Source: Chitinophaga pinensis
Lineage (GTDB): Bacteria; Bacteroidota; Bacteroidia; Chitinophagales; Chitinophagaceae
NCBI RefSeq assembly: GCF_007896845.1
Contig: NZ_VOHS01000018.1
Coordinates: 1-64,000, forward strand
Length of the DNA stretch: 64,000 nt
Reading direction: 5' to 3'
Under the pieces are notes generated by a model that saw nothing but the letters and a program-made list of their open reading frames with translations, was not told the origin of the DNA and did not search any database. Positions 23,876 through 41,204 of the stretch are shown here, in pieces. Position 1 is the stretch's first letter. Every line of letters starts with the position of its first letter. Both the position numbers and the translations under genes were made by a program.

Positions 23876-23904
23876 ATCCGATGCTAATTTGGTAACTTAC
23901 GATC

Positions 23905-24119: not shown

Positions 24120-24133
24120 AGGATAAAGAATAA

Positions 24134-25348: not shown

Positions 25349-25426
25349 TAGCAGCTTTTTTAGTGTACAAAATGGTTTGGTGGTTCCGGCTGCTAAGCTA
25401 CGCTAAATAGAAATGAATATTTTTAT

Positions 25427-25530: not shown

Positions 25531-25585
25531 AAAGATTATTGATGACTGCGACAAAGTAACAACAACTTTATGTTACCTTCAGTCT

Positions 25586-26026
25586 ATGAAGGCAGGCATC
25601 TTTATAAACAGCACCTCTCTGTTGGAGAAATCCGTTTTCGAAAGTACGGTGATCTACATTACCGAGTATAACGAAAATGGAGCAATGGGTTTCATTGTCA
25701 ACAACCCTTTCCCGCGCAAACTGAATGAACTGGAAGAGTTCTGTCATGGGAGGGATTTCCCTTTATGGGAGGGCGGTCCGGTAGATAAGGAGCACCTTTT
25801 CTTCATACACCAGCGTCCTGACCTGATCAGCGGAGGTGAGCAGGTAGGAGAGAATATCTTTCTGGGTGGCGATTTTCAGGCCGCTGTGAAACATATCAAT
25901 GAGCATACTCTGACCGAAAAAGATATCAAGATCTTTATTGGGTATTGTGGCTGGGATTATAAAGAACTGGATGAAGAGATTGATGAGGGCAGCTGGCGTA
26001 TCACTCCAACAGGCAAGTTGTTTTAG
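25586..26026 (+). CDS. YqgE/AlgH family protein
   Basis: A 146-residue cytoplasmic protein of the UPF0301 (YqgE/AlgH) family. GIFINSTSLLEKSVFESTVI and YNENGAMGFIVNNPF near the N-terminus, LWEGGPVDKEHLFFIH in the middle, and FIGYCGWDYKELDEEIDEGS near the end are family-specific. It is shorter than the usual about 180 residues because the N-terminus begins close to GIFI. No biochemical function is firmly established. It ends in a strong terminator and is convergent with the GH92 gene. Confidence 0.93.
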   Translation: MKAGIFINSTSLLEKSVFESTVIYITEYNENGAMGFIVNNPFPRKLNELEEFCHGRDFPLWEGGPVDKEHLFFIHQRPDLISGGEQVGENIFLGGDFQAAVKHINEHTLTEKDIKIFIGYCGWDYKELDEEIDEGSWRITPTGKLF

Positions 26027-26035
26027 CATATAAAA

Positions 26036-26070
26036 AAAACCATCTGACGATATCATCAGATGGTTTTTTA
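26036..26070. terminator. Bidirectional terminator between yqgE-like and GH92 genes
   Basis: A 12-bp stem, AAAACCATCTGA (26036-26047) with TCAGATGGTTTT (26056-26067), surrounds an 8-base loop with A and T runs on the outer sides. Confidence 0.9.
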
Positions 26071-26084
26071 TTTACAGTCATTAT

Positions 26085-28235
26085 TTATTTTGTTACAACC
26101 TCAATCTTCCCGCCGTTTTTAAACAGGTCATGTGGTACGAAGTAACCCTTAATAGGTTTACCATTTACTTTTATCGCAGTCAGTTTTCTGCCTTTGCCCT
26201 GATGGGTGATGGTCAGTATCTTGTTGGTGCTGGTTCTCCATTTCACTTCATCAAAGAGTGGCACCGTTACCAGATATTCCGGATCAGTGGCAGAGAAGGT
26301 ATACAGACCGGCAGCGGAGAATACATACCATGCCGACATTTCTCCCGCATCATCCATTCCGCAGAGTGCAATACCATCGTCTCCCACACCATACAGACTA
26401 TTCAGAATAGTATCAATGATTTTCTGAGACTTCTCCGGTTTGTTGATGAAGTAATACGCAAAAGGCGCTTCATGGTCCGGCTGATTACCATGACAATACT
26501 GACCAATCATGGTCTCAACGTTTCTGGCGATGTAATTTGGATTCCATGGCACAGTAAACAGAGAATCCAGTTTAGATTCGAAAGGTTTCGGACCACCATA
26601 CAGTTTAATCAGTCCCGGCATATCATGTGGTGCAAAGAAAGATACCTGCCATGCATTGGCTTCCCTGTACATATATTCATAATAAGGGTACTGCGGATTG
26701 AAATTTTTGATCCACTCACCATTTTCCAGTCTGCCTCTCATAAAACGGGTGGAAGGATCAAACATGTTTTTGTAGTTCTTTGAGCGTGCCATCAGGATAC
26801 GGTAGTTCGCCGTGTCACCGAGCTTTTTGGCAATCTGTGCCAGTGAATAGTCATCATAAGAATATTCCAGCGTCTTGGACACACCTGCTTTAGCTTTTGT
26901 TTCCACATGCGGATTAGCAATATCCGGATCAGAGATGTATCCTTTTTCGATGTACTCTGTAACGAAAGGTCTGGCGCCGTTAGCCACATTCGCGTTCCTC
27001 AGCAGTACCGCATAAGTGCCTTTTACGTCAAAATTATCAATCCCTCTCAGATAAGCACCTGCGATAGAAGAGGTGCCATGGTCACCATGGAAGAAGGTCG
27101 GAATAAAGCCGGTTTTATCACCTACATCTTTCATGGATTTGATCACATCCAGTGTTACCTGCGGAGAGATCAATCCCAGCAGCACGTCTTTATTGCGATA
27201 GGTATCCCAAAGAGAGGGCTCTGTGTAATAGTTAAAATCTGCTTTTGTTACTTTGCCTTTGGCGTCGCTGAACTCACCATTCACGTCACTACGCAAAGCG
27301 GGCCAGAGGAATGACCTGTATAAGCAGGAGTAGAACATGGTACGTTGTTTTTCAGTACCACCTTTTACTGCTACTGAAGACAGTAACTGCTCCCATTTGT
27401 CGGTAGCCGCATGCCGGATATCGTCAAAGGAATGATTGCCTATTTCCTGTTCGAGGTTTTGTCTGGCGTTTTCGGTGCTGACGAAGGACAGGCCTATTTT
27501 CATTTCTACAGGACCTTTGTTACCATCTGCAAGGTGAACGATGGCGTAGCCGTCATGCGTACTTTCTGCTTTCTTTTCCAGCTGACTGATCTTGTTGTTC
27601 AGCACTGCATAGAAATATATATTACCACCTGCGCGCTGGTATCCCTGTATAGCGAAATCACCTGCCTGATCGATGTGCCATTCGGAGATCCTGTTATTGG
27701 ACTTAGCGAGATCGAAGAGGATTTGTCTGTCGGTTTCATTTTTATATTCATATTTATGAAACCCGCAGCGCAGGGTAGAAGTCAGGCTGACATTGACGTC
27801 ATAATCTTCCAGATATACCTGATAATAGCCGGGTGCAGCACTTTCTTTCTGATGAGAGAACTTCGATTTGAAGGGTGCTGTCGGATGAGACATCGGCAAT
27901 ACCGGAATATTACATAGGTTCCAGTGGCCTTTGTTGGTATGCGTAAAGCTGTAAATGATATTGTCTTCGTATTCATACCCTGCACCGGAGCCATATGCTG
28001 TCATCGGACTTAACTGTACCATTGCATTTGGCAATGAGCTGCCGGGAAATGTCAGACCTGCCCATGATCTCCAGCCGTCAGGCAGCTTATAACCAAGGAT
28101 CTTCGGGTCTGTCAGGGGGGCTGTACCAATGAATGTATTGACGTACTTAGTATAAACAGGTGGTGCCGATTGGCTCCAGCCGTTCGTTCGGGCCAATAGG
28201 AGTGTCAGTAAAAGAAAACCTGTTCTTTTTCTCAT
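26085..28235 (-). CDS. GH92 alpha-mannosidase, secreted
   Basis: A 716-residue exported enzyme with a signal peptide (FLLLTLLLARTNGWS). It has the GH92 two-domain structure: an N-terminal beta-domain with GLTFPGSSLPNAMVQLSP (about residue 58) and FTHTNKGHWNLCNIPVLP, and an alpha/alpha barrel with FHGDHGTSS, the signature GNQPDHEAPFAYYF (about residue 582) and GMDDAGEMSAWYVFSAAGLY (about 630). The family are Ca2+-dependent exo-alpha-mannosidases acting on mannans or N-glycans. The His of HGNQPDH and the acidic residues around DDAGEMSAWY are present. It stands alone with no SusCD pair beside it. Whether it works with the GH47 enzyme about 21 kb away is inference. Confidence 0.95.
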   Translation of the reverse strand: MRKRTGFLLLTLLLARTNGWSQSAPPVYTKYVNTFIGTAPLTDPKILGYKLPDGWRSWAGLTFPGSSLPNAMVQLSPMTAYGSGAGYEYEDNIIYSFTHTNKGHWNLCNIPVLPMSHPTAPFKSKFSHQKESAAPGYYQVYLEDYDVNVSLTSTLRCGFHKYEYKNETDRQILFDLAKSNNRISEWHIDQAGDFAIQGYQRAGGNIYFYAVLNNKISQLEKKAESTHDGYAIVHLADGNKGPVEMKIGLSFVSTENARQNLEQEIGNHSFDDIRHAATDKWEQLLSSVAVKGGTEKQRTMFYSCLYRSFLWPALRSDVNGEFSDAKGKVTKADFNYYTEPSLWDTYRNKDVLLGLISPQVTLDVIKSMKDVGDKTGFIPTFFHGDHGTSSIAGAYLRGIDNFDVKGTYAVLLRNANVANGARPFVTEYIEKGYISDPDIANPHVETKAKAGVSKTLEYSYDDYSLAQIAKKLGDTANYRILMARSKNYKNMFDPSTRFMRGRLENGEWIKNFNPQYPYYEYMYREANAWQVSFFAPHDMPGLIKLYGGPKPFESKLDSLFTVPWNPNYIARNVETMIGQYCHGNQPDHEAPFAYYFINKPEKSQKIIDTILNSLYGVGDDGIALCGMDDAGEMSAWYVFSAAGLYTFSATDPEYLVTVPLFDEVKWRTSTNKILTITHQGKGRKLTAIKVNGKPIKGYFVPHDLFKNGGKIEVVTK

Positions 28236-28401
28236 GATAGGATGTTTGTGGAAATTTCAATTAAAATGGACCTGTGGCACCAAAATAGGCACCAGAGCAG
28301 AAAAATCCTAACTTTTTATGGAAAAACATGGTTGAAGGAGGTATAAACGGCAGATAAAAGGCCATTTATTGGCGAATAGGAGCGATGGTATGACGAAGTT
28401 A

Positions 28402-28995
28402 CTAGGGTTCGAGTTTCTGTTGTTTCAATTGTGCATGTCTTATCCGGCTCAGGGTCTCTCTGGAAACGCCCAGATAAGAGGCTACCATATGCAAGGGTAC
28501 TCTTCTGAAAATGTCCGGAAAGGTGCTGACAAAGTCGTGGTACTTTTCTTCGGATGTATAGCTGATATTCATGAGGATCCTCTCATAACTTGAATTCAGG
28601 GTATTAGAGATCAATGCGTCAAGATAAGTTTTGAAGGCAGGTACTGCCTGCATGATCCTATTCAGACTGTCCTGTGTCCAGAGCAATACTTCCGTGGGTT
28701 CCAGAGCTTCGATATTACATTTGGAAGGGACTTGTCTGGAGAAGCTTTCATGATCTGTTGTCCACGTGTTTTCTGGTGCGAAGCGCATGATATGCTCAGT
28801 ACCGTCATTCTTCAGACAATAGGTTTTTAACAAGCCTTTGGTGATAAACATTTTGTACTGGCAGATCTCACCTTCCTTGAGCAGCAGCTGTCTTTTGCGG
28901 TATTTTTTTACGATGGCCAGCGAGCGCATGAGCTGCAGTTCCTCTTTGCTAAATTGCCCCTTAGCGGTGATATATGCTTCGAATGTGTCAAACAT
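28402..28995 (-). CDS. Crp/Fnr family transcriptional regulator
   Basis: A 197-residue regulator. The effector beta-roll is seen in YRKRQLLLKEGEICQYKMFIT then KGLLKTYCL, and the C-terminal winged helix in RVPLHMVASYLGVSRETLSRIRHAQLKQQ. Cys residues do not form an Fnr iron-sulfur pattern. It begins about 150 bases from the divergent epimerase-type gene at 29148, so it may control that gene, or respond to redox or metabolites. The effector is unknown. Confidence 0.92.
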   Translation of the reverse strand: MFDTFEAYITAKGQFSKEELQLMRSLAIVKKYRKRQLLLKEGEICQYKMFITKGLLKTYCLKNDGTEHIMRFAPENTWTTDHESFSRQVPSKCNIEALEPTEVLLWTQDSLNRIMQAVPAFKTYLDALISNTLNSSYERILMNISYTSEEKYHDFVSTFPDIFRRVPLHMVASYLGVSRETLSRIRHAQLKQQKLEP

Positions 28996-29147
28996 TGATA
29001 GATGCCCTTTCTGATTCCTTTACCTGAAATTAGCGAAGTTAGGTCAAATGACCTCGAAAATTTGTGTCAAATGTCCTTGTTTCCGGGAGGGGTTCCGGCG
29101 GAATTTTGTGATGAAAATTAAGGCATTCATCAAATCAGCAAACAACT

Positions 29148-30038
29148 ATGAAAGTTTTTGTAACCGGCGCATCAGGATTTATCGGCTCGGCTGTTGTTCA
29201 GGAGTTAATCGCAGCAGGTCATCAGGTAACGGGGCTGGCCCGTTCGGAGGCATCTGCAAAGGCATTAGAGGCAGCGGGTGCTGCTGCACACTACGGCTCA
29301 CTGGAAGACCTTGATAGTTTAAAACAGGGTGCGGCCGCTTCAGATGGCGTCATCCATCTGGCATTTATCCATGATTTTTCGAAATATAAAGAAAACTGTG
29401 AAACCGACAGACTTGCCATTGCCGCATTAAGTGAAGGGCTGGAAGGGACTGATCGTCCATTGATCATTACTTCCGGAACGGGTGTTATAGCGCCCGGCCG
29501 GCTGGTAACAGAAACCGATCTGTCAGCTGTCGGATCTGCAGCTATTCCAAGGGTGGCTTCTGAAGAAGCTGCTGCAGCTGCGGTAGCAAAAGGCGTAAAG
29601 GCTTCTATCGTGCGTCTGCCGCCATCTGTACATGGAGATGGTGATCGTGGGTTTATTCCCGGTCTGATCGCTATCGCGCGTGAAAAAGGAGTGTCTGCTT
29701 ATGTGGAGGATGGTGCCAACCGCTGGCCTGCTGTACACAGACTGGATGCTGCAAAGGTATTCAGACTGGCTCTGGAAAAAGGAGACGGACGACCTGTTTT
29801 TCATGCGGTAGGAGACGAAGGGATAGCTGTAAAAGAGCTGGCAGGCGTGATCAGCCACAAGCTGAACTTACCACTGCAATCGGTAACGAAAGACGAAGCA
29901 GTTAATCATTTCGGCTGGCTGGGCATGTTTGTATCACTGAACATTCCGGCTTCTGCAAAACAAACAGCAGAATGGCTGGGCTGGAAACCGGAACATGTAG
30001 GGCTGGTAGCCGATCTGGAGACCGGTACTTACTTTTAA
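29148..30038 (+). CDS. NAD(P)-dependent epimerase/SDR (extended type)
   Basis: A 296-residue Rossmann protein with the N-terminal dinucleotide motif VTGASGFIGSAVVQEL (TGxxGxxG) and VIHLAF, RPLIITSGTGVI and VRLPPSVHGDGDRG later on. The usual Y-x-x-x-K pair is replaced by other residues in ASEEAAAAAV, placing it in the atypical SDR group rather than among catalytic epimerases. Such proteins act as NAD(P)H reductases or unknown redox enzymes. It is divergent from the Crp/Fnr gene and ends at a terminator. Confidence 0.9.
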   Translation: MKVFVTGASGFIGSAVVQELIAAGHQVTGLARSEASAKALEAAGAAAHYGSLEDLDSLKQGAAASDGVIHLAFIHDFSKYKENCETDRLAIAALSEGLEGTDRPLIITSGTGVIAPGRLVTETDLSAVGSAAIPRVASEEAAAAAVAKGVKASIVRLPPSVHGDGDRGFIPGLIAIAREKGVSAYVEDGANRWPAVHRLDAAKVFRLALEKGDGRPVFHAVGDEGIAVKELAGVISHKLNLPLQSVTKDEAVNHFGWLGMFVSLNIPASAKQTAEWLGWKPEHVGLVADLETGTYF

Positions 30039-30091
30039 AGATTAAAACAGAAAAGAGATATGGCGAACTGATTCCATCATCTATCCGGACA

Positions 30092-30123
30092 AAAAGAGGC
30101 TGCTCTGTGAGTCAGCCTCTTTT
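30092..30123. terminator. Bidirectional terminator
   Basis: An 11-bp stem, AAAAGAGGCTG (30092-30102) with CAGCCTCTTTT (30113-30123), and a 10-base loop lie between the convergent epimerase and SDR genes. Confidence 0.88.
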
Positions 30124-30127
30124 GTGT

Positions 30128-30724
30128 TTAATATGCTTTGATCACCTGTCCGGTGCCAGCGCCTAATATACTCTTATGATAGGCGGCTATCACCTCTTTC
30201 ATGGTCACGGGTATGTGTCCGGGGAAGTAGGGGAAATACTCCGGAGACTCTTCCACAACAGTCGGACTCACGGCATTGATCCTTACGCCATTTTCGAGTT
30301 CGATGGCTGCGGCACGTACAAATGATTCGATGGCGCCGTTCACGGCTGCAGGATTAGCAGCACTTAACACCGGGTCTTGTGAAAGGACACCTGAAATCAG
30401 TGTAAAAGATCCCTTTGGTTTGATGTAATGTTGTCCGATCAATACGAGGTTGATCTGCCCCATTAATTTGCTGTTGACACCTATCCGGAATTCTTTATCG
30501 CTCATAGTTTTCAGGGGGCCGAAATGCGCGTCGCCTGCCGTACTTACCAGTGCGTCAAAAGGCCCTGTCTGTTTGAACAGGTTTTCTATTGATGCCGGTG
30601 AATTGATATCTGCCTGTAGTACGCCACTCTTTGATCCTACTCTGATGATTTCGTGCTCTTTTTCCAGTGAGCCGGCGATGTGTTTACCGATTGTACCGGA
30701 TGCTCCTATAAGGACGATTTTCAT
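30128..30724 (-). CDS. Short-chain dehydrogenase, small atypical form
   Basis: A 198-residue SDR-fold protein with the cofactor loop IGASGTIGKHIAG at the N-terminus, SIENLFKQTGPFDALVSTAG, GQHYIKPKGSFTLISGVLSQ (catalytic serine region), and NGAIESFVRAAAIELENGVRINAVSP. The Tyr of the Y-x-x-x-K pair is absent: the equivalent stretch reads ANPAAVNGA. It resembles short SDRs in the Crp/AraC-linked redox clusters of Bacteroidota. It is probably an NADP-binding reductase; the substrate is unknown. The decayed thioredoxin-reductase-like gene lies just upstream on the same strand. Confidence 0.9.
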   Translation of the reverse strand: MKIVLIGASGTIGKHIAGSLEKEHEIIRVGSKSGVLQADINSPASIENLFKQTGPFDALVSTAGDAHFGPLKTMSDKEFRIGVNSKLMGQINLVLIGQHYIKPKGSFTLISGVLSQDPVLSAANPAAVNGAIESFVRAAAIELENGVRINAVSPTVVEESPEYFPYFPGHIPVTMKEVIAAYHKSILGAGTGQVIKAY

Positions 30725-30743
30725 TATTATTCTTTTTTAGCTT

Positions 30744-31650
30744 TTATGATTGAATTGTATAAAAAGACTTAGTAACCGCTATACCGGTTGCTGTACCCAT
30801 GGCGACTGCGTTCGCTACTGTGCGTAGGCGAGTCGTATTATCTCCACAGGCAAAAACACCGGGAATAGTTGTCTGTTGTGTGTTATCTGTTATGAGATAC
30901 CCCTCTGTTGTGCATACGCAACCCAGCTTTTTCGGTAAAGAACAATGTTGTTCAAAAGGCGCATGTGTATATAACGCCGTGACGGCAGCAGTTGTTCCGT
31001 CGGCGAAAACAATATGGCTGATATAGCCATTCTCCTGTACCAGTTGACTGACTGTTTTTCAACAATGGGAATATGCTGTTCCTGCAGGATGGCATACTGT
31101 CCGGGCGTCAATTTAGCACTTCCATTGGTAAACAACGTTAGATCAGCAGTCCAGTTACGGATAAGGAGGGAGAAGTCGAAACCATAGTCGCCATTACCCA
31201 GTATACCGGTGCTGGCATTCCTGACCTCATAACCATGACAGAAGGGGCAATGTAATACGGAGATCCCCCAGCATTCAGACAAACCGGTAATATCAGGTAA
31301 CAGGTCGCGGATGCCTGTTGCAAAGATCAGTTTACGGGCATGGAAGCTATCTCCTGAAGCAACGCTGATGCTGAATCCTGTTGCCGTCCGGACAGCATCG
31401 GTGGCAAGGTCGCTGAGGAATTGTACGGTAGATATTGTGCCACCTGTTGCCGGGCAATAGCGCTGATATTGGCCGGTGTTTGTCCGTCCTGTGTCAGGAA
31501 ATTGTGAGCGTAAGGCGTTTGCCTGTTGCAAGGCAGACCGCTGTCAATGATCAGGACTTTTTTCAAGGCCCTGCCTAAAGCCATACCGGCTGCAAGCCCT
31601 GCGTAGCTGCCACCGATAATGATGACGTCCATATATTTTTCATTGATCAT
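30744..31650 (-). pseudogene. Thioredoxin-reductase-like FAD/NAD oxidoreductase, frameshifted
   Basis: The N-terminus (31650 downward) reads MDVIIIGGSYAGLAAGMALGR, an FAD-binding GxGxxG-type motif, and LPCNRQTPYAHNFLTQDG. A frame change near 31420 leads to FSISVASGDSFHARKLIFATG and LPDITGLSECWGISVLHCPFCHG, which has a C-x-x-C-H. Another change near 31060 leads to the C-terminal GVFACGDNTTRLRTVANAVA then MGTATGIAV and a stop at 30744. The order and spacing are those of thioredoxin-reductase-like enzymes. With two frameshifts it is not expected to work unless these are base-calling errors. Confidence 0.85.
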
Positions 31651-31662
31651 GGTGTATTGTTT

Positions 31663-31890
31663 TTATAAGTTGTTTGCTTTCTTCGCGCGCTTTATGTTGA
31701 TGAGACGTTCTACCAATGGTAATCCTGCGAATACCATCCATGGCACGAGGATGATCGTGAGCAGGAATGTTCTCAGGTACAGCGGTAATGAAGAGATAGG
31801 TTGTCCGAAGAAATAGAGGAATAGTGTGATGGAGGGATAGATGACTATCCATATTTTCAGGGAAGCGATCAGTCTGTTTTTTGTCGTCAT
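31663..31890 (-). CDS. Small membrane protein of unknown function
   Basis: A 75-residue protein with two hydrophobic segments (IWIVIYPSITLFLYFFGQPI and LYLRTFLLTIILVPWMVFAGL) and a basic tail (ERLINIKRAKKANNL). I do not recognise a family with certainty, though the pattern resembles small two-helix DUF2798-type proteins. It is immediately upstream of the thioredoxin-reductase-like pseudogene on the same strand, 12 bases away, so it probably shares its transcript. Confidence 0.6.
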   Translation of the reverse strand: MTTKNRLIASLKIWIVIYPSITLFLYFFGQPISSLPLYLRTFLLTIILVPWMVFAGLPLVERLINIKRAKKANNL

Positions 31891-31972
31891 AGCTGCGTGA
31901 TTACTTGTTACAATGCAAAAGTAGACCGGTAGCGGCTATCAGGTGTAGGACAAAAATGTAGTTCAATAGGAT

Positions 31973-32829
31973 TTATCTGCAGTTCTGCCGGAAGGCGTCA
32001 GGGGTATAACCTGTATGTTTTTTGAAGAAACGGATAAAATAGGAGACGTCTTCATAGCCCAGCCGGAAGGCGATGTTGTTAATCTGTTCCGTAGTGGCGC
32101 GGAGTTGTCTTCTGGCTTCGAGTATGATATATCGTTGATGACTTCAGAGCAGGTTTTATCCAGTGTTTGTTTGGTGATGGCGTTTAGCTGATAGGTGGTC
32201 AGGTGCATCATGGCGGCGTATTGCGACACTTGTTTGTATTCCGCGTAATGTGTTTCTACCAGTTCTGTAAAGGTGTCCAGTCTTTCCTGAAAATAGTGAG
32301 GTTCCTGCGTAGCAGCGATGTGTCTCTGATCTCTCAGCAGTTCGATAAAGAAAACAGAGAGCTGGGACCTGATGGCCTCCTGATAACGTTCTTCCTGATG
32401 CGTGTATTCGTCGGAGATATATTGCAGGATACCGGCTAATTTCTGAAATCTGCGGGCGTCAAAAGTATAGTAATTGATGTTGCCCGCTTTCCGCAGAAGG
32501 CGCCGGGCCTGTTGATCATGGGCGGTATAGAAACCTTCACTGAATTGTATCAGGTAACCGCTGCTGCCGGTGTGTAATGTCAGTTCGTGTACCTGTCCCG
32601 GACGTACCAGAAAAGCGGAGTGATTGGTAATAGGGTACGGCTGGAAGTCAATATGATGTTGACCTGTGCCTGTTTTCAGGATAAGTATGTAAAAGAAGTC
32701 ATGCCGGTGTAATGGTTCTTGCATATCTTCTCCGGTCAGTAAGTCCTGTACATTACGGATGCTGAAGCGATAGGAGGCTTCCTGTTGCTTCAACACCGTA
32801 TGAATATGTCTGATAGGTATGCTGTCCAT
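31973..32829 (-). pseudogene. AraC family regulator with a late frameshift
   Basis: An N-terminal cupin sensor (RHDFFYILILKTGTGQHHI then DFQPYPI, VRPGQVHEL) is followed by the first HTH helix region (YKQVSQYAAMMHLTTYQLN then AITKQTL). At about 32127-32135, near NDIS, the frame is lost by one base. In the next frame the second HTH appears intact (LEARRQLRATTEQINNIAFR then LGYEDVSYFIRFFKKHTGY) to a stop at 31973. One indel therefore separates it from a complete AraC protein. It could be a recent mutation or a sequencing error. Confidence 0.75.
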
Positions 32830-32907
32830 GGAAGAGAAGAAAAGTGCTTAAATAACTTCTCTCAAAAGTAAGCACTTTTCATGAATCCCTGTTTTATAGC
32901 AATGTGA

Positions 32908-33786
32908 TCAGAAGTTGGCTGCAAATTCTTTTGCGAAGCTTTCGAGTTTGATGCTGCCTGTTACCGGTGATCCTGTTTTTATATAGTCTGCAAAGAGTTT
33001 ACCGCTACGGAAACCAGCGCCCATCTCAGCAAACAGGTGCGCGATTTCTTCCGGTATACCTGCCTGTGACATTCCCTGAAGAGATTGTTCATCGGTAAAT
33101 TCTACCCATGGCAGTTCCGGTTTGCCGATCGCAGCACCCAGTACTTTGGAGAAATCTGCCGGTGTGCGGATATCACTGATAACATAGCGTATATTTTTGC
33201 CGGCAGGACTGTGGACCAGTTCTTCTGCGGCCGCTGCTGCGATATCAGCAGGGTGTACCAGTGGCAGACCCAGTGTATCAGGATAGTTACCGCCGATAAT
33301 GCCCATGCCTTTGATCAGTGGTACATCATTGTAAAAATTGGTATAGAAGAGACCTGCACGCAGGAATGTAACAGAAGTGCCTTCCAGTTGTCTGTACAGG
33401 TCTTCAATATGGTGCAGACTGGCGATCGGGCCGTTGCCGGTAGCGTGATCTGCCCCTATGCTGCTGAGCATGACAACACGTGGCACATGTGTTGCGCTGA
33501 TAGCTTCGGCGAAAGCTTTACCGGCATCGATCGTATTTTGGATGACATTGCTACCGCCCATTTTTGGAGGTGTCATGGCGAAGAGTGCGTCGGCGCCTGT
33601 CAGGACTGTTTTCAGAAATGCAATATCGGCTACTGAACCAATGGCGGCTTTTGCACCTGTTGCTTCGATGGCTGCTTGCCTGTCTGTACTGCTGCTGATA
33701 ACGGTTACGTCATGTCCGCCTGCTACCAGTTTCTCTGTCAGATATCTGCCGATGTTCCCGAGGGAACCTGAAATTGTAATTTTCAT
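32908..33786 (-). CDS. NmrA-like NAD(P)H-binding atypical SDR
   Basis: A 292-residue Rossmann protein starting MKITISGSLGNIGRYLTEKL from the ATG at 33786; the frame is open to 33840, but the first strand begins at this ATG. It has ADALFAMTPPKMGGSN, ISATHVPRVVMLSSIGADHA and TFLRAGLFYTNFYND, typical of NmrA/QOR2-type quinone or NAD(P)H reductases that lack the Y-x-x-x-K pair. It is divergent from the HxlR gene, with paired GTACTTACT repeats between them, so it is the likely HxlR target. It is a close paralogue of the gene at 42288. Confidence 0.93.
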   Translation of the reverse strand: MKITISGSLGNIGRYLTEKLVAGGHDVTVISSSTDRQAAIEATGAKAAIGSVADIAFLKTVLTGADALFAMTPPKMGGSNVIQNTIDAGKAFAEAISATHVPRVVMLSSIGADHATGNGPIASLHHIEDLYRQLEGTSVTFLRAGLFYTNFYNDVPLIKGMGIIGGNYPDTLGLPLVHPADIAAAAAEELVHSPAGKNIRYVISDIRTPADFSKVLGAAIGKPELPWVEFTDEQSLQGMSQAGIPEEIAHLFAEMGAGFRSGKLFADYIKTGSPVTGSIKLESFAKEFAANF

Positions 33787-33822
33787 GTTTGCTTTTGTTT
33801 TTGCTGAAACAAAGGTATTTTT

Positions 33823-33849
33823 GTACTTACTTTTTGGCAAGTACTTACT
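33823..33849. promoter_or_regulatory. Paired GTACTTACT direct repeats, probable HxlR operator
   Basis: GTACTTACT occurs at 33823-33831 and again at 33841-33849, an 18-base period, in the 77-bp gap between divergent NmrA-like and HxlR genes. HxlR-type regulators bind GTAC/TTAC-rich sites in such positions. A 9-bp repeat set 1.7 helical turns apart points to a protein binding site and autoregulation; this is inference. Confidence 0.6.
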
Positions 33850-33863
33850 CCAAAGTATGTATC

Positions 33864-34226
33864 ATGGGAATATTTAAAACATCTTCTACCATTCAGGAGA
33901 ATAAGCAGTTTGCATTGGATCAATGTCCGGTGACGCACCTGATGGAAAAGATCGGCAGTTACTGGAAACCGATTATTCTCTGGCAACTTTCCAGCGGCGA
34001 TAAACGGTACAGTGAACTGAAACGCGCGATACCGGCGATTACGGAAAAGATGCTGATCCAGCACCTGAAACAACTGGAGGCAGACAATCTGCTGATCAGG
34101 GAATCAAGACCAGTTGTACCACCTTTTGTGACGTATCGGCTGACGAAAGCAGGAGAGGGATTACTACCGGTTATTCATGCGATGGCGGAATGGTCCTTTA
34201 AAGACAAGGAAGGGGCTTTTAAATAA
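33864..34226 (+). CDS. HxlR family winged-helix regulator
   Basis: A 120-residue HxlR protein. The family core is clear: CPVTHLMEKIGSYWKPIILW then QLSSGDKRYSELKRAIPAIT then EKMLIQHLKQLEADNLLIRE (winged helix), then VPPFVTYRLTKAGEGLLPVI. A conserved cysteine near the N-terminus (Cys20) could act as a redox sensor, as in HxlR/YodB relatives. I chose the ATG at 33864; the upstream frame continues to 33789 but lacks family sequence. It probably controls the divergent NmrA reductase and the downstream SRPBCC and quinone-oxidoreductase genes. Confidence 0.92.
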   Translation: MGIFKTSSTIQENKQFALDQCPVTHLMEKIGSYWKPIILWQLSSGDKRYSELKRAIPAITEKMLIQHLKQLEADNLLIRESRPVVPPFVTYRLTKAGEGLLPVIHAMAEWSFKDKEGAFK

Positions 34227-34232
34227 AAAGCG

Positions 34233-34694
34233 ATGAAAAACACTTCTTATAACAGCAGGGTCATCATGGCTTCTGCAGAAAAGATCTATCATGCACTGAC
34301 TGATCCAAAGGCACTGGCCAGCTGGCAGGCGCCGGGAGATATGACTGCGGAAGTACACGACTTTGATGGCAGGGAAGGAGGTGGTTACACCATGTCACTT
34401 TTCTATGCGGAAACGGATAGTGTCTCCGAAGGGAAAACGCAGGGAAAAGAAGATCGTTTCAGTGCACGCTTTGTAAAGCTTGAGCCACCGCATCGCATTA
34501 TACAGGCGGTTCGTTTTGACACGGATAATCCTGCGTTTGAAGGTGAGATGATCATGGATATCACATTGGAAGAACAGGGAACGGCAACGAAGGTCAGTTT
34601 TTTCTTCAGTGATATTCCTTCCGGTATCCGTCCGGAAGATAATGAAGCCGGTACAGCATCCTCGCTGGAAAAACTGGCTGGATATGTAGAATAA
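34233..34694 (+). CDS. SRPBCC/AHSA1-family protein
   Basis: A 153-residue small-molecule-binding helix-grip protein. YNSRVIMASAEKIYHALTDP then KALASWQAPGDMTAEVHDFD and GGGYTMSLFY are typical of the AHSA1-type START/Bet v 1 fold (SRPBCC). These proteins bind hydrophobic ligands or act as polyketide-cyclase-like enzymes; the ligand is unknown. It lies 6 bases after the HxlR gene and 35 bases before the quinone oxidoreductase, likely one operon. Confidence 0.9.
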   Translation: MKNTSYNSRVIMASAEKIYHALTDPKALASWQAPGDMTAEVHDFDGREGGGYTMSLFYAETDSVSEGKTQGKEDRFSARFVKLEPPHRIIQAVRFDTDNPAFEGEMIMDITLEEQGTATKVSFFFSDIPSGIRPEDNEAGTASSLEKLAGYVE

Positions 34695-34729
34695 CCCATT
34701 AAGCATCATATAAACCCACTACTAACGAT

Positions 34730-35697
34730 ATGAAAGCAGCAGTCATTACACAGGCAGGTGCACCAGAAGTTCTGCAATGGAAGGAGTATGCAGATCCGAC
34801 ACCGGAAGAGAGGAAGTATTGATCGAAGTAAAAGCGGCTGGTATAACCGCGCAGATGTGGCGCAACGGCAAGGTAAATATCCGCCTCCGCCGGGTGTGAC
34901 AGTTGATATTCCGGGACTGGAAGTGGCAGGTATTGTTATCCGCTGTGGAGAGGGCGTTACCCAATGGAAAGAAGGTGACCGTGTCTGTGCTTTGCTGGCG
35001 GGAGGTGGTTATGCCGAAAAAGTAGCGGTTGCTGAGGGGCAATGCCTGCCGGTACCGGAGGGGTATAGCTTTGCGGAAGCGGCTTCCCTGCCGGAAGCTA
35101 TTATACGGTGTGGTCTAATGTCTTTCAGAGAGCACGTCTTCAGACAGGGGAAACCTTTCTGATACATGGTGGTTCCAGTGGTATCGGTGTAACGGCTATT
35201 CAGCTGGCGCATGCGTTGGGAAACCGGGTGATTGTAACAGTGGGCTCAGAGGCAAAGGGAGTGGCCTGTATGGAATTGGGCGCTGACCGTTTTGTCAATT
35301 ATAAAAACAGCGATTTTGAGCAGGAATTAGCCAATGAAAAGATAGACGTGATCCTCGACATGGTCGGAGGGGAGTATCTGCCTAAAAACCTCCGTATACT
35401 GCGTGAGGAAGGGCGTCTGGTTTATATCAACACAATGGGAGGTAACCGCACGGAACTGGACCTGAGCCTCGTTATGCGTAAACGGCTGACAATCACCGGT
35501 AGTACTTTGAGAGGCAGGGAGTACGCTTACAAAAAAGCCCTCACAGAGGATATTCTTCAACAGGTATGGCCCTTGCTGAAGGCCGGAAAATTCAAGCCGG
35601 TTATTTACACCCTTTTTCCATTCGAAGAAGCCGCTGCTGCCATCGTGTAATGGAAAGCAGTGAGCATATCGGAAAGCTCATTTTAACAGCTTCCTGA
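34730..35697 (+). pseudogene. Frameshifted zinc-less NAD(P)H:quinone oxidoreductase (QOR/PIG3 type)
   Basis: An ATG at 34730 starts MKAAVITQAGAPEVLQWKEY. The frame changes near 34800, giving RADVAQRQGKYPPPPGVTVD, again near 35100, giving ETFLIHGGSSGIGVTAIQLA (cofactor motif) and VIVTVGSEAKGVACMELGAD, and once more near 35640, giving MESSEHIGKLILTAS with a stop at 35697. These are the usual landmarks of the medium-chain dehydrogenase quinone reductases. Three or more small indels make it non-functional or poorly sequenced. The HxlR-SRPBCC-QOR order suggests an electrophile- or quinone-response unit. Confidence 0.87.
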
Positions 35698-35824
35698 GCT
35701 ACAAAAAATTACAAAAAACATTATTTAACAAAAGTTGCCGGTGCTGATACAAGGAAAAAATTGGGTTAGCGACTGGTCTGCTGAGTCGTGTCTTTATCAG
35801 GAAGATAATTGGCAGATATTCCGT

Positions 35825-35901
35825 AGATAACCCGTATATAAGCCGTATATAAGCCATTCTATATAGATACGGATTATATACGGCTTATATACGGGTTATC
35901 T
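35825..35901. repeat. Perfect 28-bp inverted repeat
   Basis: The 28 bases at 35825-35852 are the exact reverse complement of 35874-35901, with a 21-base spacer. The stem begins AGATAACCCG and contains two tandem copies of CGTATATAAGC in the left arm. It lies about 130 bases after the QOR pseudogene. It has no T tract like that of an ordinary terminator, and it could be a large hairpin, a protein-binding site, or the remnant of a small mobile element. Confidence 0.85.
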
Positions 35902-35963
35902 AGGGCAATCGTATGGTTTATATTGTTTTATGGAACGACGTCAGGACCTTGTATTAATATGAG

Positions 35964-36275
35964 GTTGATGTATTGCAAGCAGAATTAATTTTATATGTTG
36001 GAGTTTATTTCAGCGGGCGTGTTACAGGTGTAAATTGTCCTGATATAGCAAAGCCTTACAGTTGATTTATTACATGCAGGATTAACTTTACTGTTAGAGT
36101 CCATTTTCAACGGGCATGTTACAGGTGTAAATTGTCCTGATACAGCAAAGCCTTACAGTTGACGTATTGCATGCAGGATTAACCCTACATATTAAAGTTT
36201 ATTCAGCGGGCGCATTACAGGTGTAAATTGTCTTGGTACAGCAAAACCTTACGGTTGAATTATTGCATGCGGTCT
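35964..36275. repeat. Tandem array of about 97-bp units (three full plus one partial)
   Basis: Units start at 35964, 36061, 36158 and 36254 (partial), with periods 97, 97 and 96. Each unit begins gttga-tattgcatgcagg. The best conserved part, about 60 bases in, reads ttacaggtgtaaattgtc and ends gcaaagccttaca; a central stretch of about 35 bases varies more. The period is not a multiple of three and no open frame spans the array, so it is non-coding. The conserved part contains an inverted TTACA..TGTAA. From 36276 to 36501 I see nothing recognisable. The array lies downstream of the photoreceptor-regulator gene. Confidence 0.88.
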
Positions 36276-36501
36276 CCTTTTTACAGGTAGGATGATAGTG
36301 GTTACTTTGTCAGCCTTATAACTAAACCGAAGCCCGAATGTTATAGGATATAATCCGGCTGTGGAAGAAGGCCTGCAAATATGAAGTATACACGGCGTAT
36401 ATACGATGTATCCATACCGGAACTTTTCCATAAAAGGACCATTTACTGCAGGCTTGTTGCGGCAAGCACTGTCTTATGGCTCTGGAACTGTGGGAAAGCG
36501 C

Positions 36502-37385
36502 TCAGGCTTTTTGTGTGATGTGCATCAAAGAAAGCAGATCGTTGACTGTGCGTGCATTGGGAGGGAGCATTTCCCGGACGCCGGCAGGGATAGGCCCTGT
36601 GAAATAGATATTAAGACCGGGTGCAAACTCACAAAGTTGCTGAGAGAAGGACATAAAATCGTTGGAGGTGATAGGATTGGTCATGCCGGTGATGATCAGG
36701 TCAGGTTTACATATTGTAATGACCCTGTAAAGGCTGTCATGAGGAACGGACTGCCCCAGATAAATAGTACGGTAGCCTCTTGCACGAAGTGCGTAGTTAT
36801 AAAACAATAATCCGATTTCATGTAATTCTCCTTCAGGGAGGAACAGGAGTGCCACATTCGCACTGGTTTCAGGATGTTTATTGAGTGCTTCTGTGGCCAT
36901 AATGATCTTACTTCTGATAAGATTTGAGAAGAAGTGCTCCTGTGCCGGATTGATAGTACCCGCCTGCCACATAATACCAATACGGTGGAAGAAAGGGAAA
37001 ATACAGGAAATGATGGTGTCTTCAAACCCTCTTTTCATCATCAGGCCTGAAAATGTACTGTTAAATAGTTGTTCGTCCATGTCTATGAGACTAAGCAACA
37101 GGTTTTCATCCGTGGAGCCGTTCTGACTGAATAATCCGACGGAAGAGGCTTTTTCTGCTATCTCTTCATCATTCATTTCGCTGATCGTGGATATTTTATA
37201 CCCATGCTGATTCAGCAGACTGATATTCAGGATCTTTTTAAGTTCGTCGTTACCGTAGTAACGGATATTAGTATCCGTTCTGCCCGGTTTGATGATACCA
37301 TAGCGTTTTCCCATATCCTCAGCGTGTGCGCTTTGATACCGGACAGTCTTTCCAGATCCTTTATGGAGTAGTTCTCAGATGCCAT
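36502..37385 (-). CDS. CarH-like MerR-type B12-dependent photoreceptor, with N-terminal frameshift
   Basis: From the ATG at 37385 the frame reads SENYSIKDLERLSGIKAHTL then RIWE, the start of a MerR winged helix. A missing A in a GAAAA run near 37305-37312 then shifts it, and the rest (KRYGIIKPGRTDTNIRYY, then 36502-37314) continues in another frame. The C-terminal part is a cobalamin-binding module. W116, E126 and H127 form the W-x9-E-H motif, and E163, H165 and G168 form E-x-H-x-x-G (numbered from the MGKRYG start), the two hallmarks of adenosylcobalamin-binding CarH. CarH proteins repress carotenoid genes in the dark and release DNA when light splits the cofactor. Divergent crtI fits this. 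If the indel is real, the DNA-binding domain is broken. Confidence 0.85.
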
Positions 37386-37431
37386 AATCACCTATTTTCA
37401 GAGCGCAATGTAGTAATAATATGTTGTGGGC

Positions 37432-37439
37432 TTAAACAA
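37432..37439. promoter_or_regulatory. Single TTAAACAA half-site near the carH-like promoter
   Basis: One copy of the same TTAAACAA half-site found in the crt operators lies 47-54 bases upstream of the carH-like start codon, with no matching partner at the standard distance. It could allow autoregulation. One 8-base match is weak evidence. Confidence 0.3.
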
Positions 37440-37591
37440 AATGCACTCATTTTCTCCGGAATCTTCAGCAGCTATATGCTTGTTACTGGTACCCATTTCA
37501 CCGGTTTTCAAACAGAAAATCCCCTCTATTGCTGTGTAAAAAGGTTCCAGGTTCTGCAATTAGTCTAAATAGAAACACCTTTGGTCCTATT

Positions 37592-37660
37592 TTGTTTAAT
37601 TTTTTAATTCAAAAGTTAAACAATACATTTGTTTAAGATTTTAATTAAATGGTTAAACAA
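37592..37660. promoter_or_regulatory. Two TTGTTTAA-N16-TTAAACAA operators upstream of crtI
   Basis: TTGTTTAA at 37592-37599 faces TTAAACAA at 37616-37623. The same pair recurs at 37629-37636 and 37653-37660, each with exactly 16 bases between the arms. The inner arms (37616-37636) also form a 21-base palindrome with a 5-base spacer. Four matching half-sites at fixed spacing directly before crtI, divergent from a CarH-like gene, look like a cooperative dimer- or tetramer-type operator. The binding protein is inferred. Confidence 0.75.
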
Positions 37661-37663
37661 AAT

Positions 37664-39157
37664 ATGGCCAGTTCTGCTATTGTCATAGGCGCGGGTTTAT
37701 CAGGGCTTTCGGCGGCCATTAGTCTGGCGAAGGAGGGGTATGCGGTGACATTGGTAGAGCGGCATGATCAGACAGGTGGCCGGGCAAGGGTATTTGAGGC
37801 TGGGGGATTCAGGTTTGATATGGGGCCCAGCTGGTATTGGATGCCGGAAGTGGCAGCGGATTTCTTCCAACAGCATGGACGTTCGATTGATGACTATATG
37901 ACCCTGAAGCGGCTGGACCCTTCTTATCAGGTTATTTTCGGGAAAGGAGAGCAGGTAAGTCTGCCATCCTCATTTGCGGCATTACAGGCGGTATTTGAGG
38001 GGATTGAAACAGGTGCGGGCAGTCGTCTTGCCAGATTTATGGAGGAAGCAGAGTATAAGTATAAAACAGCGATGTCTGCCTATGTCAGGAAGCCCGGATT
38101 GCATGTGCATGAATTATGTAATGGAGAAGTGATGCGTTCATTTCTGCGGATGGATATGCTGCAATCTTTTAGTCATCATGCCCGTAAGTTTTTCAAAGAT
38201 GAACGGCTGCTGAAAATTATTGAGTTCCCTGTGCTGTTCCTTGGCGCCACACCTGAGCGGATCCCTGCGATGTACAGCATGATGAACTATGCTGATATGA
38301 AACTTGGTACATGGTATCCGGAAGGAGGAATGCATATGTTGGTCAACGCTTTTACCAGACTGGCCATTGAATCGGGTGTAGAGATAATGTTGAACACGAC
38401 TGTAGAAGGCATGGATGTGGAACGGAATCGTGTAAAGAGAGTACGTACCAATAAAGGGGTGCTGACTGCCAATGTCATCGTATCGGGAGCGGATTATCAT
38501 CATACAGATCATGAATTGTTGCCATCAGGGAAAGCGAATTATAGCGCTCATTATTGGGAGAAACGGGTGATGGCTCCTTCCTGTCTTATTTATTACATCG
38601 GTGTAAGTAAAAAGATTGCCCGCCTGCAGCATCATAATCTTTTCTTTGAAGACGATTTCCGGCAACATGCGGAAGCTATTTACAACTCACCCGAATGGCC
38701 GCAGCAACCGCTTTTCTATCTGTGCTGTCCTTCAAAAACAGATGATACGGTTGCACCGCCGGGTATGGAGAACCTGTTTTTTCTCATTCCTACAGCACCC
38801 GGACTGCTGGATACGCCTGACATCAGAAATCATTATCTGCAATTTGTGCTTAGGAAAACAGAAGAATTCTGTGGAGAGAAAATAGGGGAGCAGATTGTAT
38901 ACTCCCGCAGTTATGCCTGTACAGATTTTATAGCTGATTACAGCGCATTTAAAGGGAATGCTTATGGGCTGGCCAATACATTGGGACAGACTGCTTTTCT
39001 AAAACCATCCATCAGACATAAGTCTGTTACCAATTTATTTTTTACTGGTCAGCTGACAGTTCCGGGGCCCGGTGTACCACCGGCCATTATTTCCGGACAG
39101 GTAGTCGCAGAATATATCTCAAAACAAAAAGTATCTCGTTATGAAAGCGTTATTTGA
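37664..39157 (+). CDS. crtI: Phytoene desaturase (CrtI-type)
   Basis: An about 497-residue FAD-dependent flavoprotein converting phytoene to lycopene. It opens with the dinucleotide fold AIVIGAGLSGLSAAISLAKE then GYAVTLVERHDQTGGRA, then FDMGPSWYWMPEV, typical of CrtI. The C-terminal FAD/quinone region is GQLTVPGPGVPPAIISGQVV. ATGs at 37649 and 37664 are both possible. I prefer 37664 because it starts the conserved sequence and leaves the upstream operator outside the coding region. It overlaps crtB by 17 bases. It is the first of four crt genes. Confidence 0.95.
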   Translation: MASSAIVIGAGLSGLSAAISLAKEGYAVTLVERHDQTGGRARVFEAGGFRFDMGPSWYWMPEVAADFFQQHGRSIDDYMTLKRLDPSYQVIFGKGEQVSLPSSFAALQAVFEGIETGAGSRLARFMEEAEYKYKTAMSAYVRKPGLHVHELCNGEVMRSFLRMDMLQSFSHHARKFFKDERLLKIIEFPVLFLGATPERIPAMYSMMNYADMKLGTWYPEGGMHMLVNAFTRLAIESGVEIMLNTTVEGMDVERNRVKRVRTNKGVLTANVIVSGADYHHTDHELLPSGKANYSAHYWEKRVMAPSCLIYYIGVSKKIARLQHHNLFFEDDFRQHAEAIYNSPEWPQQPLFYLCCPSKTDDTVAPPGMENLFFLIPTAPGLLDTPDIRNHYLQFVLRKTEEFCGEKIGEQIVYSRSYACTDFIADYSAFKGNAYGLANTLGQTAFLKPSIRHKSVTNLFFTGQLTVPGPGVPPAIISGQVVAEYISKQKVSRYESVI

Positions 39158-39968
39158 CAGGGTTAGTGCCGCTTGCAGTAAGCTTACAACCAAAGCTTAC
39201 AGTACCTCCTTTTCTCTTGGGATACGATTGCTTGCCGGTAAATTTCATGCGCCTATATATGGCATTTATGGTTTCGTCCGTTTCGCTGACGAGATTGTAG
39301 ATTCTTTCCACGAATATCCTAAAGCGGAGTTGCTGCATGATTTCAGAGAACAGACTTACAGAGCGATCAGGGACAAGATCAGTCTCAATCCTATCTTAAA
39401 CAGTTTTCAACAGGTAGTCCATACCTATCATATAGAGCAGGAGTTGATAGATACCTTTCTGGATAGTATGGAAATGGATCTTCAACAGCACTTTTATACA
39501 AGAAGTATTTATGAAAAGTATATACTTGGCTCGGCTGAAGTAGTTGGATTGATGTGTCTGAAGGTTTTTACAGACGGAAACCATGCAATGTACGAACAAC
39601 TAAAGTACCCTGCTATGAAGCTGGGGGCTGCTTTCCAGAAGGTTAATTTTCTGCGGGATGTGAGAACGGATAGTCAGGAACTGGGCAGGCATTATTTCCC
39701 GCAGATTAACCTCAATAATTTCTCCTGTCAGGATAAAGCGGCTATTGAAGCGGAAATTGCCTGTGATTTCAATGAAGCGCTTGAAGGTATAAAGGCATTA
39801 CCTATGTCTTCCAGAAAGGGGGTATATCTGGCATATGCTTATTACCGGGTCTTGTTTAATAAGATCAGAAACCTTCCACCGCAGAAAATTATGACGGAAA
39901 GGATTCGTGTTGCCAACAGTCATAAGATCGGTATTATGTTACAGACGATGCTGTTGCAGGTCAGATAA
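39141..39968 (+). CDS. crtB: Phytoene synthase
   Basis: A 275-residue prenyltransferase joining two geranylgeranyl diphosphate molecules into phytoene. The two acidic motifs are visible: FVRFADEIVDSF near residue 47, giving D-E-x-x-D, and KVNFLRDVRTDSQELGRHYF near 165. AEVVGLMCLKVF and the Gln/Asn pattern in AMKLGAAFQKVN fit the trans-IPPS family. It overlaps crtI by 17 bases, so the two are translationally coupled. No GGPP synthase (crtE) gene is in the window. Confidence 0.95.
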   Translation: MKALFDRVSAACSKLTTKAYSTSFSLGIRLLAGKFHAPIYGIYGFVRFADEIVDSFHEYPKAELLHDFREQTYRAIRDKISLNPILNSFQQVVHTYHIEQELIDTFLDSMEMDLQQHFYTRSIYEKYILGSAEVVGLMCLKVFTDGNHAMYEQLKYPAMKLGAAFQKVNFLRDVRTDSQELGRHYFPQINLNNFSCQDKAAIEAEIACDFNEALEGIKALPMSSRKGVYLAYAYYRVLFNKIRNLPPQKIMTERIRVANSHKIGIMLQTMLLQVR

Positions 39969-40000
39969 GGATCATTGTTAATACACTATATTGAAACAGG

Positions 40001-40477
40001 ATGATATTACTATCTTATATACTGGTGGGTCTTGGCGCGTTTGTTTTTATGGAAATGGTCGCATGGTTCACGCATAAATATATTATGCACGGATTTTTAT
40101 GGTCCTTGCATAAGGACCACCATCGAAAAGATGAAGGACATTTCTTTGAAAAGAATGACTTCTTCTTTGTGATATTCGCTTTGCCCGGAATGTTGTTGTT
40201 TCTGTTAGGTACATTGCAGCATCTGCCTTACCTGATAGCTATTGCCACAGGCATTACTTTGTATGGCGCTACCTATTTTCTGGTACATGACGTTTTTGTA
40301 CATCAGCGTTTTCGCTGGCTGAGAAATTCGGATAATGTTTATCTGCGTGCGCTGAGACGGGCGCATAAAATGCATCATAAACATATCGGTAAAGAAAAAG
40401 GAGAGTGTTTCGGTATGTTGTTTTTTCCGGTACGTTTTCTGAAAGATGCCTTCAGTAAAGAAAAAAGTTATTCCTGA
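40001..40477 (+). CDS. crtZ: Beta-carotene hydroxylase (CrtZ, fatty-acid-hydroxylase type)
   Basis: A 158-residue di-iron membrane enzyme. The histidine boxes are all present: HKYIMHG (near residue 25), HKDHHRKDE (near 38), HDVFVHQRF (near 97) and HKMHHKH (near 122). Hydrophobic segments such as LLSYILVGLGAFVFMEMV and FFFVIFALPGMLLFLLG lie between them. It adds 3-hydroxyl groups to beta-carotene rings, giving zeaxanthin. The next gene starts one base after its stop (TGA G ATG). Confidence 0.93.
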   Translation: MILLSYILVGLGAFVFMEMVAWFTHKYIMHGFLWSLHKDHHRKDEGHFFEKNDFFFVIFALPGMLLFLLGTLQHLPYLIAIATGITLYGATYFLVHDVFVHQRFRWLRNSDNVYLRALRRAHKMHHKHIGKEKGECFGMLFFPVRFLKDAFSKEKSYS

Positions 40478-40478
40478 G

Positions 40479-41204
40479 ATGTGGTATACTTACCTCACAA
40501 TAGATCTGGCTTCCATTGCCGTGCCTTTTATCTTCTCATTTCATCCTAAGCTGAGATTTTACAGGCATTGGGGCGCTTTATGGCCGGCTCTTTTTATTCC
40601 CGGATTGTTTTTTATCTGCTGGGATTGTTTCTTTACTGCCAAAGGTGTGTGGGGATTTAATCCAAAATATGTATCAGGTGTATATCTGGTCAATCTGCCA
40701 TTGGAAGAGATATTGTTTTTCCTGTGTATCCCTTATGCCTGCCTCTTTTCTTATCATAGTATTTTTACACTCTGGCCGAAATTGCATTTGCCACATATAC
40801 TGACAAAGCTTATTTCATGGGGACTCATTGCTGCCGGCTTGTGTGCCGCATATGTGTATAGTGACAAAAGCTATACTTTTCTGACTTTGTTATTGATGTC
40901 CCTGTTCGTTTTTGGTATAACCATCCTGTTTAAGAACCAATGGGTGGACCGTTTTTATATCTGTTATGGATTGATGTTATTACCATTTCTGGTAGTAAAC
41001 GGTCTCCTGACCGGTTCCTGGATACAGGAACCGGTTGTATGGTATAATGCTGCTGAAATTGCTGGTCCGAGGCTGATGACAATCCCGCTGGAAGACATCG
41101 CGTACGGATTGTTGCTCATCGGTGTAGAAGTAGCACTGTATGAATATTTTTTGTCAGGTAAACGACCCTCGCTTACCTATAGCGCTCTTTCTGAAGGCAG
41201 ATGA
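40479..41204 (+). CDS. Lycopene cyclase, fused CrtYc-CrtYd (CarR) type
   Basis: A 241-residue polytopic membrane protein with about seven helices. Two lycopene-cyclase-domain repeats are seen: YLVNLPLEEILFFLCIPYA near residue 80 and LMTIPLEDIAYGLLLIGVE near 205, each with the P-L-E-E/D-I motif. Such heterodimer-type domains (CrtYc plus CrtYd), fused here in one chain, form beta-rings on lycopene. The ATG at 40479 lies one base after the crtZ stop; an upstream in-frame ATG at 40446 would overlap crtZ by 32 bases and is less likely. The expected product of the four genes is zeaxanthin. Confidence 0.93.
   Translation: MWYTYLTIDLASIAVPFIFSFHPKLRFYRHWGALWPALFIPGLFFICWDCFFTAKGVWGFNPKYVSGVYLVNLPLEEILFFLCIPYACLFSYHSIFTLWPKLHLPHILTKLISWGLIAAGLCAAYVYSDKSYTFLTLLLMSLFVFGITILFKNQWVDRFYICYGLMLLPFLVVNGLLTGSWIQEPVVWYNAAEIAGPRLMTIPLEDIAYGLLLIGVEVALYEYFLSGKRPSLTYSALSEGR

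Follow-up and report, generated by a model that had tools for sequence, protein, structure and literature searches.

An inverted-repeat operator candidate beside CarH-like MerR/B12 regulators linked to carotenoid genes in Chitinophaga and other Bacteroidota

The closest described counterparts of the system considered here are the CarH regulators of Thermus thermophilus and Bacillus megaterium (class I LitR), which act on carotenoid genes through half-sites with the core TnnACA and, in the available text of PMC9304148 and PMC11796333, combine a MerR helix-turn-helix (HTH) carrying R-x-W-E-x-R-Y with the motifs W-x9-EH, E-x-H-x-x-G and GxxxP. CarA and CarH of Myxococcus and relatives similarly repress crt promoters from TnnACA-core sites lying over promoter elements; inverted repeats were first proposed for CarA, and PMC9304148, as far as its available text goes, argues that CarA also reads direct repeats. 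The 64,000-nucleotide stretch of Chitinophaga pinensis analysed here (hereafter the window; assembly GCF_007896845.1, contig NZ_VOHS01000018.1, the first 64 kb of contig 18 in a 7.1 Mb genome of 96 contigs) carries a gene for a regulator with all of these protein motifs, divergent from a crtI-crtB-crtZ-lycopene cyclase operon. Between the two lies an inverted repeat whose general form, TGTTTA-N18/19-TRAACA, recurs at related regulators elsewhere in the phylum, and which we propose as the operator. Its half-sites share the TnnACA core, whereas the arrangement in the clade of the window, two inverted repeats at a 37-bp step, is unlike that of characterised CarH operators.

The class II LitR proteins PplR1/PmlR2 of Pseudomonas resemble our case in reading paired half-sites at a fixed spacing and in governing a light regulon that in Pseudomonas putida includes the PhrB photolyase and FolE; unlike our case, their site is TGTACA-N12-TGTACA, a LOV partner senses light and, as far as the available text of PMC9758184 describes them, they have no intact B12 domain. 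Within Bacteroidota, the same four enzymes, crtI, crtB, crtZ and cyclase, are light-induced in Chryseobacterium lacus, and light induction of carotenoids in non-phototrophic members is already recorded as a phenotype (PMC7064467, in the parts available); the text of that paper never uses the word MerR, and its available parts describe no operator. As at the loci described below, crt clusters of Echinicola include merR and rpoE genes and those of Nonlabens merR, according to the accessible portions of PMC8683446 and PMC11855829, which give these genes neither a function nor an operator. The operator was not found described in the open-access literature searched, most subscription papers lying outside that search.

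A paired inverted repeat between the regulator and crtI

A preliminary description of the window had reported two identical copies of TTGTTTAA-N16-TTAAACAA in the intergenic region, and both are present, 37 bp apart (Table 1). They are the only two copies in the 7.1 Mb genome, and none of 100 shuffles of the window yielded a match. The same description had suggested searching related carH-crtI intergenic regions, and the motif proved conserved both within the genus and beyond the family. In an alignment of 12 orthologous intergenic regions, with conservation judged by eye, every locus retains half-sites 1 and 2 and 11/12 retain half-site 3, so that the first three stand together at 11/12. The identity of the two copies holds in this sequence but not as a conserved feature, since half-site 4 varies: it reads GAAACA at seven loci, where it forms part of the crtI start ATGAAACAA, TAAACA at three and CAAACA at one, and is lost at one. 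A TAnnTTTG box, the Bacteroidota -7 consensus, is kept at the crtI promoter position in 12/12 loci. The additional half-site proposed near the regulator's own promoter does exist, on the minus strand, but it is found at only 5/12 loci and without a conserved partner.

The presence of the motif goes with the regulator, not with the crt operon. Matches to the regulator occur in 46/79 genomes of the genus: besides the window itself, 11 relatives are 58-94% identical and another 34 are 30-40% identical; the regulator locus of Chitinophaga sp. YR627 is 94% identical to that of the window. Each of the 12 close regulators stands opposite a crtI-crtB-crtZ-lycopene cyclase operon. Eleven of the 79 genomes contain the three-half-site core, once in each, always at this locus and with no mismatch although two were allowed, while the control gave none. 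The crtI gene itself is present in 23/79 genomes, 11 of which have no close regulator; leaving aside G046, in which crtI is in two pieces, the crt operons of the other ten all lack the paired site within 8.5-9.5 kb. The operator reading of the preliminary description is therefore well supported, by conservation as well as by this association. Two other accounts of the motif were rejected: as a general feature of crt promoters it is ruled out by those ten operons, and as a product of chance in AT-rich DNA by the shuffles and the reversed-pattern controls. An attempt to define a wider regulon in the window genome from the 24-bp pair alone was likewise discarded, with 34 forward matches at up to one mismatch against 23 for the control. 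Besides the two operator sites, the genome holds one exact 24-bp pair, at G000:C4:307526, with a G+C-rich spacer.

The features of the locus are collected in Table 1. The divergent order of crtI, crtB, crtZ and lycopene cyclase, also noted previously, is consistent with Pfam, and synteny is kept in 12/12 loci including the window.

Table 1. Coordinates of the regulator, the candidate operator and the carotenoid genes in the window.
Feature	Position	Strand	Remarks
CarH-like MerR/B12 regulator gene	36502..37385	-	frame broken near 37308; Pfam MerR_1 and B12-binding_2
E-x-H-x-x-G lower-ligand motif in regulator	36811..36828	-	
W-x9-E-H photosensor motif in regulator	36934..36969	-	
Lone half-site TTGTTTAA, 5' of regulator start	37432..37439	-	
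Operator site 1, TTGTTTAA-N16-TTAAACAA	37592..37623	no strand	half-sites 1 and 2
Candidate crtI -7 box TACATTTG (TAnnTTTG)	37624..37631	+	half-site 3 overlapping
Operator site 2, TTGTTTAA-N16-TTAAACAA	37629..37660	no strand	half-sites 3 and 4; half-site 4 overlaps crtI start region
crtI, phytoene desaturase	37649..39157	+	start at 37649 or 37664
crtB, phytoene synthase	39141..39968	+	PF00494
crtZ-like carotene hydroxylase	40001..40477	+	PF04116
Lycopene cyclase	40446..41204	+	PF18916

Related regulators elsewhere in the phylum and their putative targets

Relatives of the regulator were found in 155/244 genomes of the family and in 50/247 genomes of the phylum, family members included. We examined 90 loci (89 from the family, mostly top-ranked matches, and one from a Sphingobacterium metagenome-assembled genome) together with 43 loci outside the family. 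Linkage to carotenoid genes, complete among the 12 orthologous loci, extends to 69/90 of the wider set, crtI having been sought only inside the fetched flanks: it lies downstream on the same strand at 68 loci, is divergent at one and falls outside the flanks at 21. In the loci inspected by eye a sigma-like gene stands between the regulator and crtI, and one relative of this gene is an extracytoplasmic function (ECF)-type sigma factor by Pfam (regions 2 and 4). The pair TGTTTA...TAAACA at 24/25 bp occurs, with up to one mismatch, at 29/90 and 24/43 loci, compared with 0.4 and 0.5 in dinucleotide shuffles, and without mismatch at 15/90 and 6/43, compared with 0.0; when two mismatches are allowed the count rises to 47/90, though other spacings rise too. 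The left half-site forms part of a TAnnTTTG box in 22/55 operators, and at many of the loci from other families the right half-site reads ATGAACA, in frame with the regulator and presumed to serve as its start. Several genomes contributed two or three loci, the locus L127 is that of L017, and the two folE cases reported below come from one genus, so these counts are not independent events.

A second group of Chitinophaga MerR/B12 regulators, at 30-40% identity (L015-L032, L046-L054 and L267), shows TGTTYA...TnnACA at the 24/25-bp spacing in 14/18 loci (0.05 when shuffled), with the right half over a presumed TTG start; no crt gene was found in the nine of these loci that were fetched at larger size. 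In a different genus of the same family, the locus L055 repeats the double array with the identical 37-bp step; its divergent gene is crtB-like at 29% identity, and crtI was not found in the fetched flanks. That related sensors from other Bacteroidota groups also have this paired site next to them suggests that they share a circuit for responding to light.

The overlap of the left half-site with the -7 box defines a composite pattern, TAnnTTTGTTTA-N18-TRAACA, which we searched without mismatch in genomes chosen by hand from the match lists. It gave 59 sites in 34 of 42 regulator-bearing genomes, against 2 for the reversed pattern. Among 45 genomes in which the regulator had no match, 33 from the genus and 12 from outside it, there were 2 sites, both in one genome (control 0); the 12 from outside are free of a match at E 1e-30 only, such that a weaker relative is possible. 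Within the genus alone the figures are 12 sites in 17 regulator-bearing genomes versus 2 in 33 without. A large share, 47/59, falls in 24 genomes of one AT-rich family (f5), which, from its gene layout, we guess to be Flavobacteriaceae.

With respect to the regulator, 25 of the 59 composite sites lie no more than 400 bases to one side or the other of its 5' end, another 6 follow its 3' end at up to the same distance, and the remaining 28 are off-locus; for four of the six past the 3' end the loci were fetched, and crtI is the next gene downstream. Taking the downstream gene as the longest open reading frame (ORF) starting within 320 bp, which left 2 of the 28 off-locus sites without one, the first ORF encodes a fasciclin-domain protein in seven cases and a CHRD protein, a photolyase or GTP cyclohydrolase I (folE) in two cases each. 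Single cases encode an ECF-type sigma factor, DUF2867 with an NAD-binding domain, a short-chain dehydrogenase, a carbonic anhydrase, a flavin reductase, a penicillin amidase, PQQ repeats, MORN repeats, an MnmA-like tRNA thiouridylase and DUF349, and three have no family. The seven fasciclin-domain genes (L251, L252, L258, L259, L260, L261 and L268) stand directly behind the composite promoter-operator; we know of no link between fasciclin-domain proteins and light. In G049, a genome with a regulator of the second Chitinophaga group, a sigma factor gene likewise follows a composite site.

What the computation shows directly is that the paired site exists and is conserved, that it is tied to the regulator, that it overlaps the -7 box and start codons, and that further sites occur. 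These results point to the inverted repeat as an operator that this family of regulators uses regularly in several Bacteroidota groups, one that would cover the regulator's own start and a few further genes. As a concrete, testable sequence, it makes the regulon predictable across genomes of the phylum.

CarH features, light sensing and rival readings

We consider it probable that the carotenoid operon of the window is switched by light through a CarH-like repressor, which binds as the adenosylcobalamin (AdoCbl) form and is released on illumination. In the dark, the regulator with AdoCbl in its C-terminal domain would bind the inverted repeats TGTTTA-N18-TAAACA, which cover the crtI -7 box and start, and so block RNA polymerase. 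Light would break the Co-C bond and release the repressor from the DNA, whereupon crtI, crtB, crtZ and lycopene cyclase would be made, the product probably being zeaxanthin. In many relatives the regulator would repress its own gene as well as crtI. Binding by the regulator, repression, the use of AdoCbl and the response to light are what we infer from the arrangement of the sites and from the protein.

The protein carries several marks of CarH. A profile built from 12 sequences finds Thermus CarH as its best match in the PDB (3whp, E 2.2e-17; 5c8d, E 2.6e-17). The residues W116, E126, H127, E163, H165 and G168, named in the preliminary description, are all present in the 270-aa ORF, and correspond to W140, E150, H151, E187, H189 and G192 of the intact orthologue L004. 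Among 155 aligned relatives (162 regulator proteins minus seven shorter than 200 aa, the broken protein of the window standing apart), W140 is kept in 153, E150 in 154, H151 in 149, E187 in 154, H189 in 151, G211 in 154 and P215 in 149. The W-x9-E-H photosensor motif, present in the window, is intact in 148/155, and the lower axial ligand motif E/D-x-H-x-x-G/P is found in the window. The MerR winged HTH with its RxWExRY recognition helix occurs in 149/155, and is split in the window by an apparent deletion. The near-invariant W140, EH, H189 and GxxxP match the marks of light-responsive cobalamin domains, given as GxxW, EH, GxxH and GxxxP in the available text of PMC11796333. The genome also encodes two cobalamin adenosyltransferases, so that AdoCbl could be made from imported corrinoid. 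An AlphaFold2 model from a three-row alignment had a mean predicted local distance difference test score (pLDDT) of 51.7, too poor for a fold search.

The B12 and light scheme already put forward in the preliminary description is made likely by these residues, the two adenosyltransferases and the composite sites at photolyase and folE genes, but several observations weigh against it. The position equivalent to His132 of Thermus CarH is Gln in the window; of the 155 relatives, 63 have Gln there, 45 have Leu and a single one has His. The second half of the B12 motif (x41-SxT/V-x22-27-GG) is degenerate, with T236 in 115/155, Ser at the Ser position in 7 and G264 in 152, followed here by Pro. At the position that we take to be Arg176 in Thermus CarH numbering there is Leu, with Arg in 1/155 relatives. 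CarH operators are tandem 11-bp direct repeats, nnnnTnnACAn, while here the repeats are inverted at 24/25 bp, and none of 55 operators (0/55) has a TnnACA spaced 11 or 22 bp away from its right half-site, which rules out a layout of the CarH type. No pair at up to one mismatch was found at 61/90 and 19/43 loci. The composite control set includes a single genome of f5 (G512, with 0 sites), the family that supplies most of the sites, and for many of the off-locus targets no connection with light is known. Finally, the regulator frame is broken in this very sequence.

We call the regulator CarH-like rather than CarH in the strict sense, since it has a degenerate second half of the B12 motif and no direct-repeat operator; this choice of name leaves untouched the claim of a CarH-like mode of action. 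As for His132, it is held critical for tetramer break-up, and the Thermus H132A protein mostly remains tetrameric in light, in the available text of PMC10442372, although the same paper cites an earlier report to the contrary; a His after the Trp is said to occur in many CarH homologues and is thus not strictly defining. CarH relatives that naturally lack His132, as this set does, bear on whether light release needs the bis-His switch. It is, in our judgement, an even call whether Bacteroidota have a B12 photoreceptor branch of their own that dispenses with this switch, reads the inverted repeats TGTTTA-N18/19-TRAACA placed over the -7 box, and controls a set of light-stress genes made up of those for carotenoids, photolyase, GTP cyclohydrolase I, an ECF sigma factor and fasciclin surface proteins.

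The same residues leave room for a regulator that binds the operator and senses cobalamin supply, redox state or oxygen instead of light, or that acts as a B12-independent, CarA-like repressor. In keeping with this, His132 has no equivalent in all but one of the 155 relatives, the second half of the B12 motif is degenerate, PF02310 (B12-binding) is reached by only 9/12 close members, and the fasciclin, CHRD and carbonic anhydrase genes have no obvious role in a light response. We nevertheless regard it as rather unlikely, given that the W-x9-EH signature, so widely kept here, has been proposed as what separates CarH from CarA (PMC9304148, in its available text), and that light is what the carotenoid, photolyase and folE genes among the targets suggest.

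The frame of the regulator requires a closer look. The preliminary description took the 270-aa ORF at 36502-37314 as the whole regulator, which does not hold: it is without most of the HTH, the natural start being at 37385. An apparent one-base deletion near 37308 shifts the remainder into another frame, and the shorter ORF consequently begins inside the recognition helix. The frame is unbroken in 11/11 orthologues (L004-L014). A scan of genome contigs with the broken protein of the window as query returned only two loci. Taken at face value, the break would mean that this strain has lost its regulator and makes carotenoid in light and dark alike; the change is there in the sequence, and no second copy of the regulator exists in the genome. 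We hold such a loss to be unlikely. Across the window and the next 20 kb, 7/52 orthologous ORFs compared with G035 (6/37 compared with G068) match in more than one frame, and alignments of those seven genes show 12 one-base deletions in the window sequence and one 2-base insertion at a gene end. Single-base losses so frequent and so one-sided make a sequencing or assembly fault the best reading, and the operator is fully retained despite the break. The frame break is therefore likely a fault of the data, and gene calls in assembly GCF_007896845.1 need care. The broken ORFs span 21975-37385 of the window, including a quinone-oxidoreductase-like gene (34730-35641) and an AraC-like gene (31976-32892), with a further one, L209, near G000:C18:82600.

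Binding of the inverted repeat by some transcription factor other than the adjoining MerR/B12 protein would account for a repeat layout that departs from characterised CarH. We find this very unlikely, as the site tracks the regulator through several gene layouts, including regulators that have no crtI nearby, is absent from all ten crt operons that lack a close regulator, is rare in regulator-less genomes and has TnnACA as its core. That the repeat acts instead as a leader RNA hairpin hiding the start codon is scarcely credible: its halves can pair, UGUUUA even with UGAACA if one G-U pair is allowed, and a start codon is often overlapped by the right half, but where the left half lies in the TAnnTTTG box transcription would start within the repeat, and site 1 of the window is upstream of the -7 box.

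One feature of the window stands apart from the operator. An 18-base core that is absent from four loci of relatives (L035-L038) belongs to a 97-bp unit repeated in 3.2 copies at 35964-36270, adjoining the 3' end of the regulator gene.

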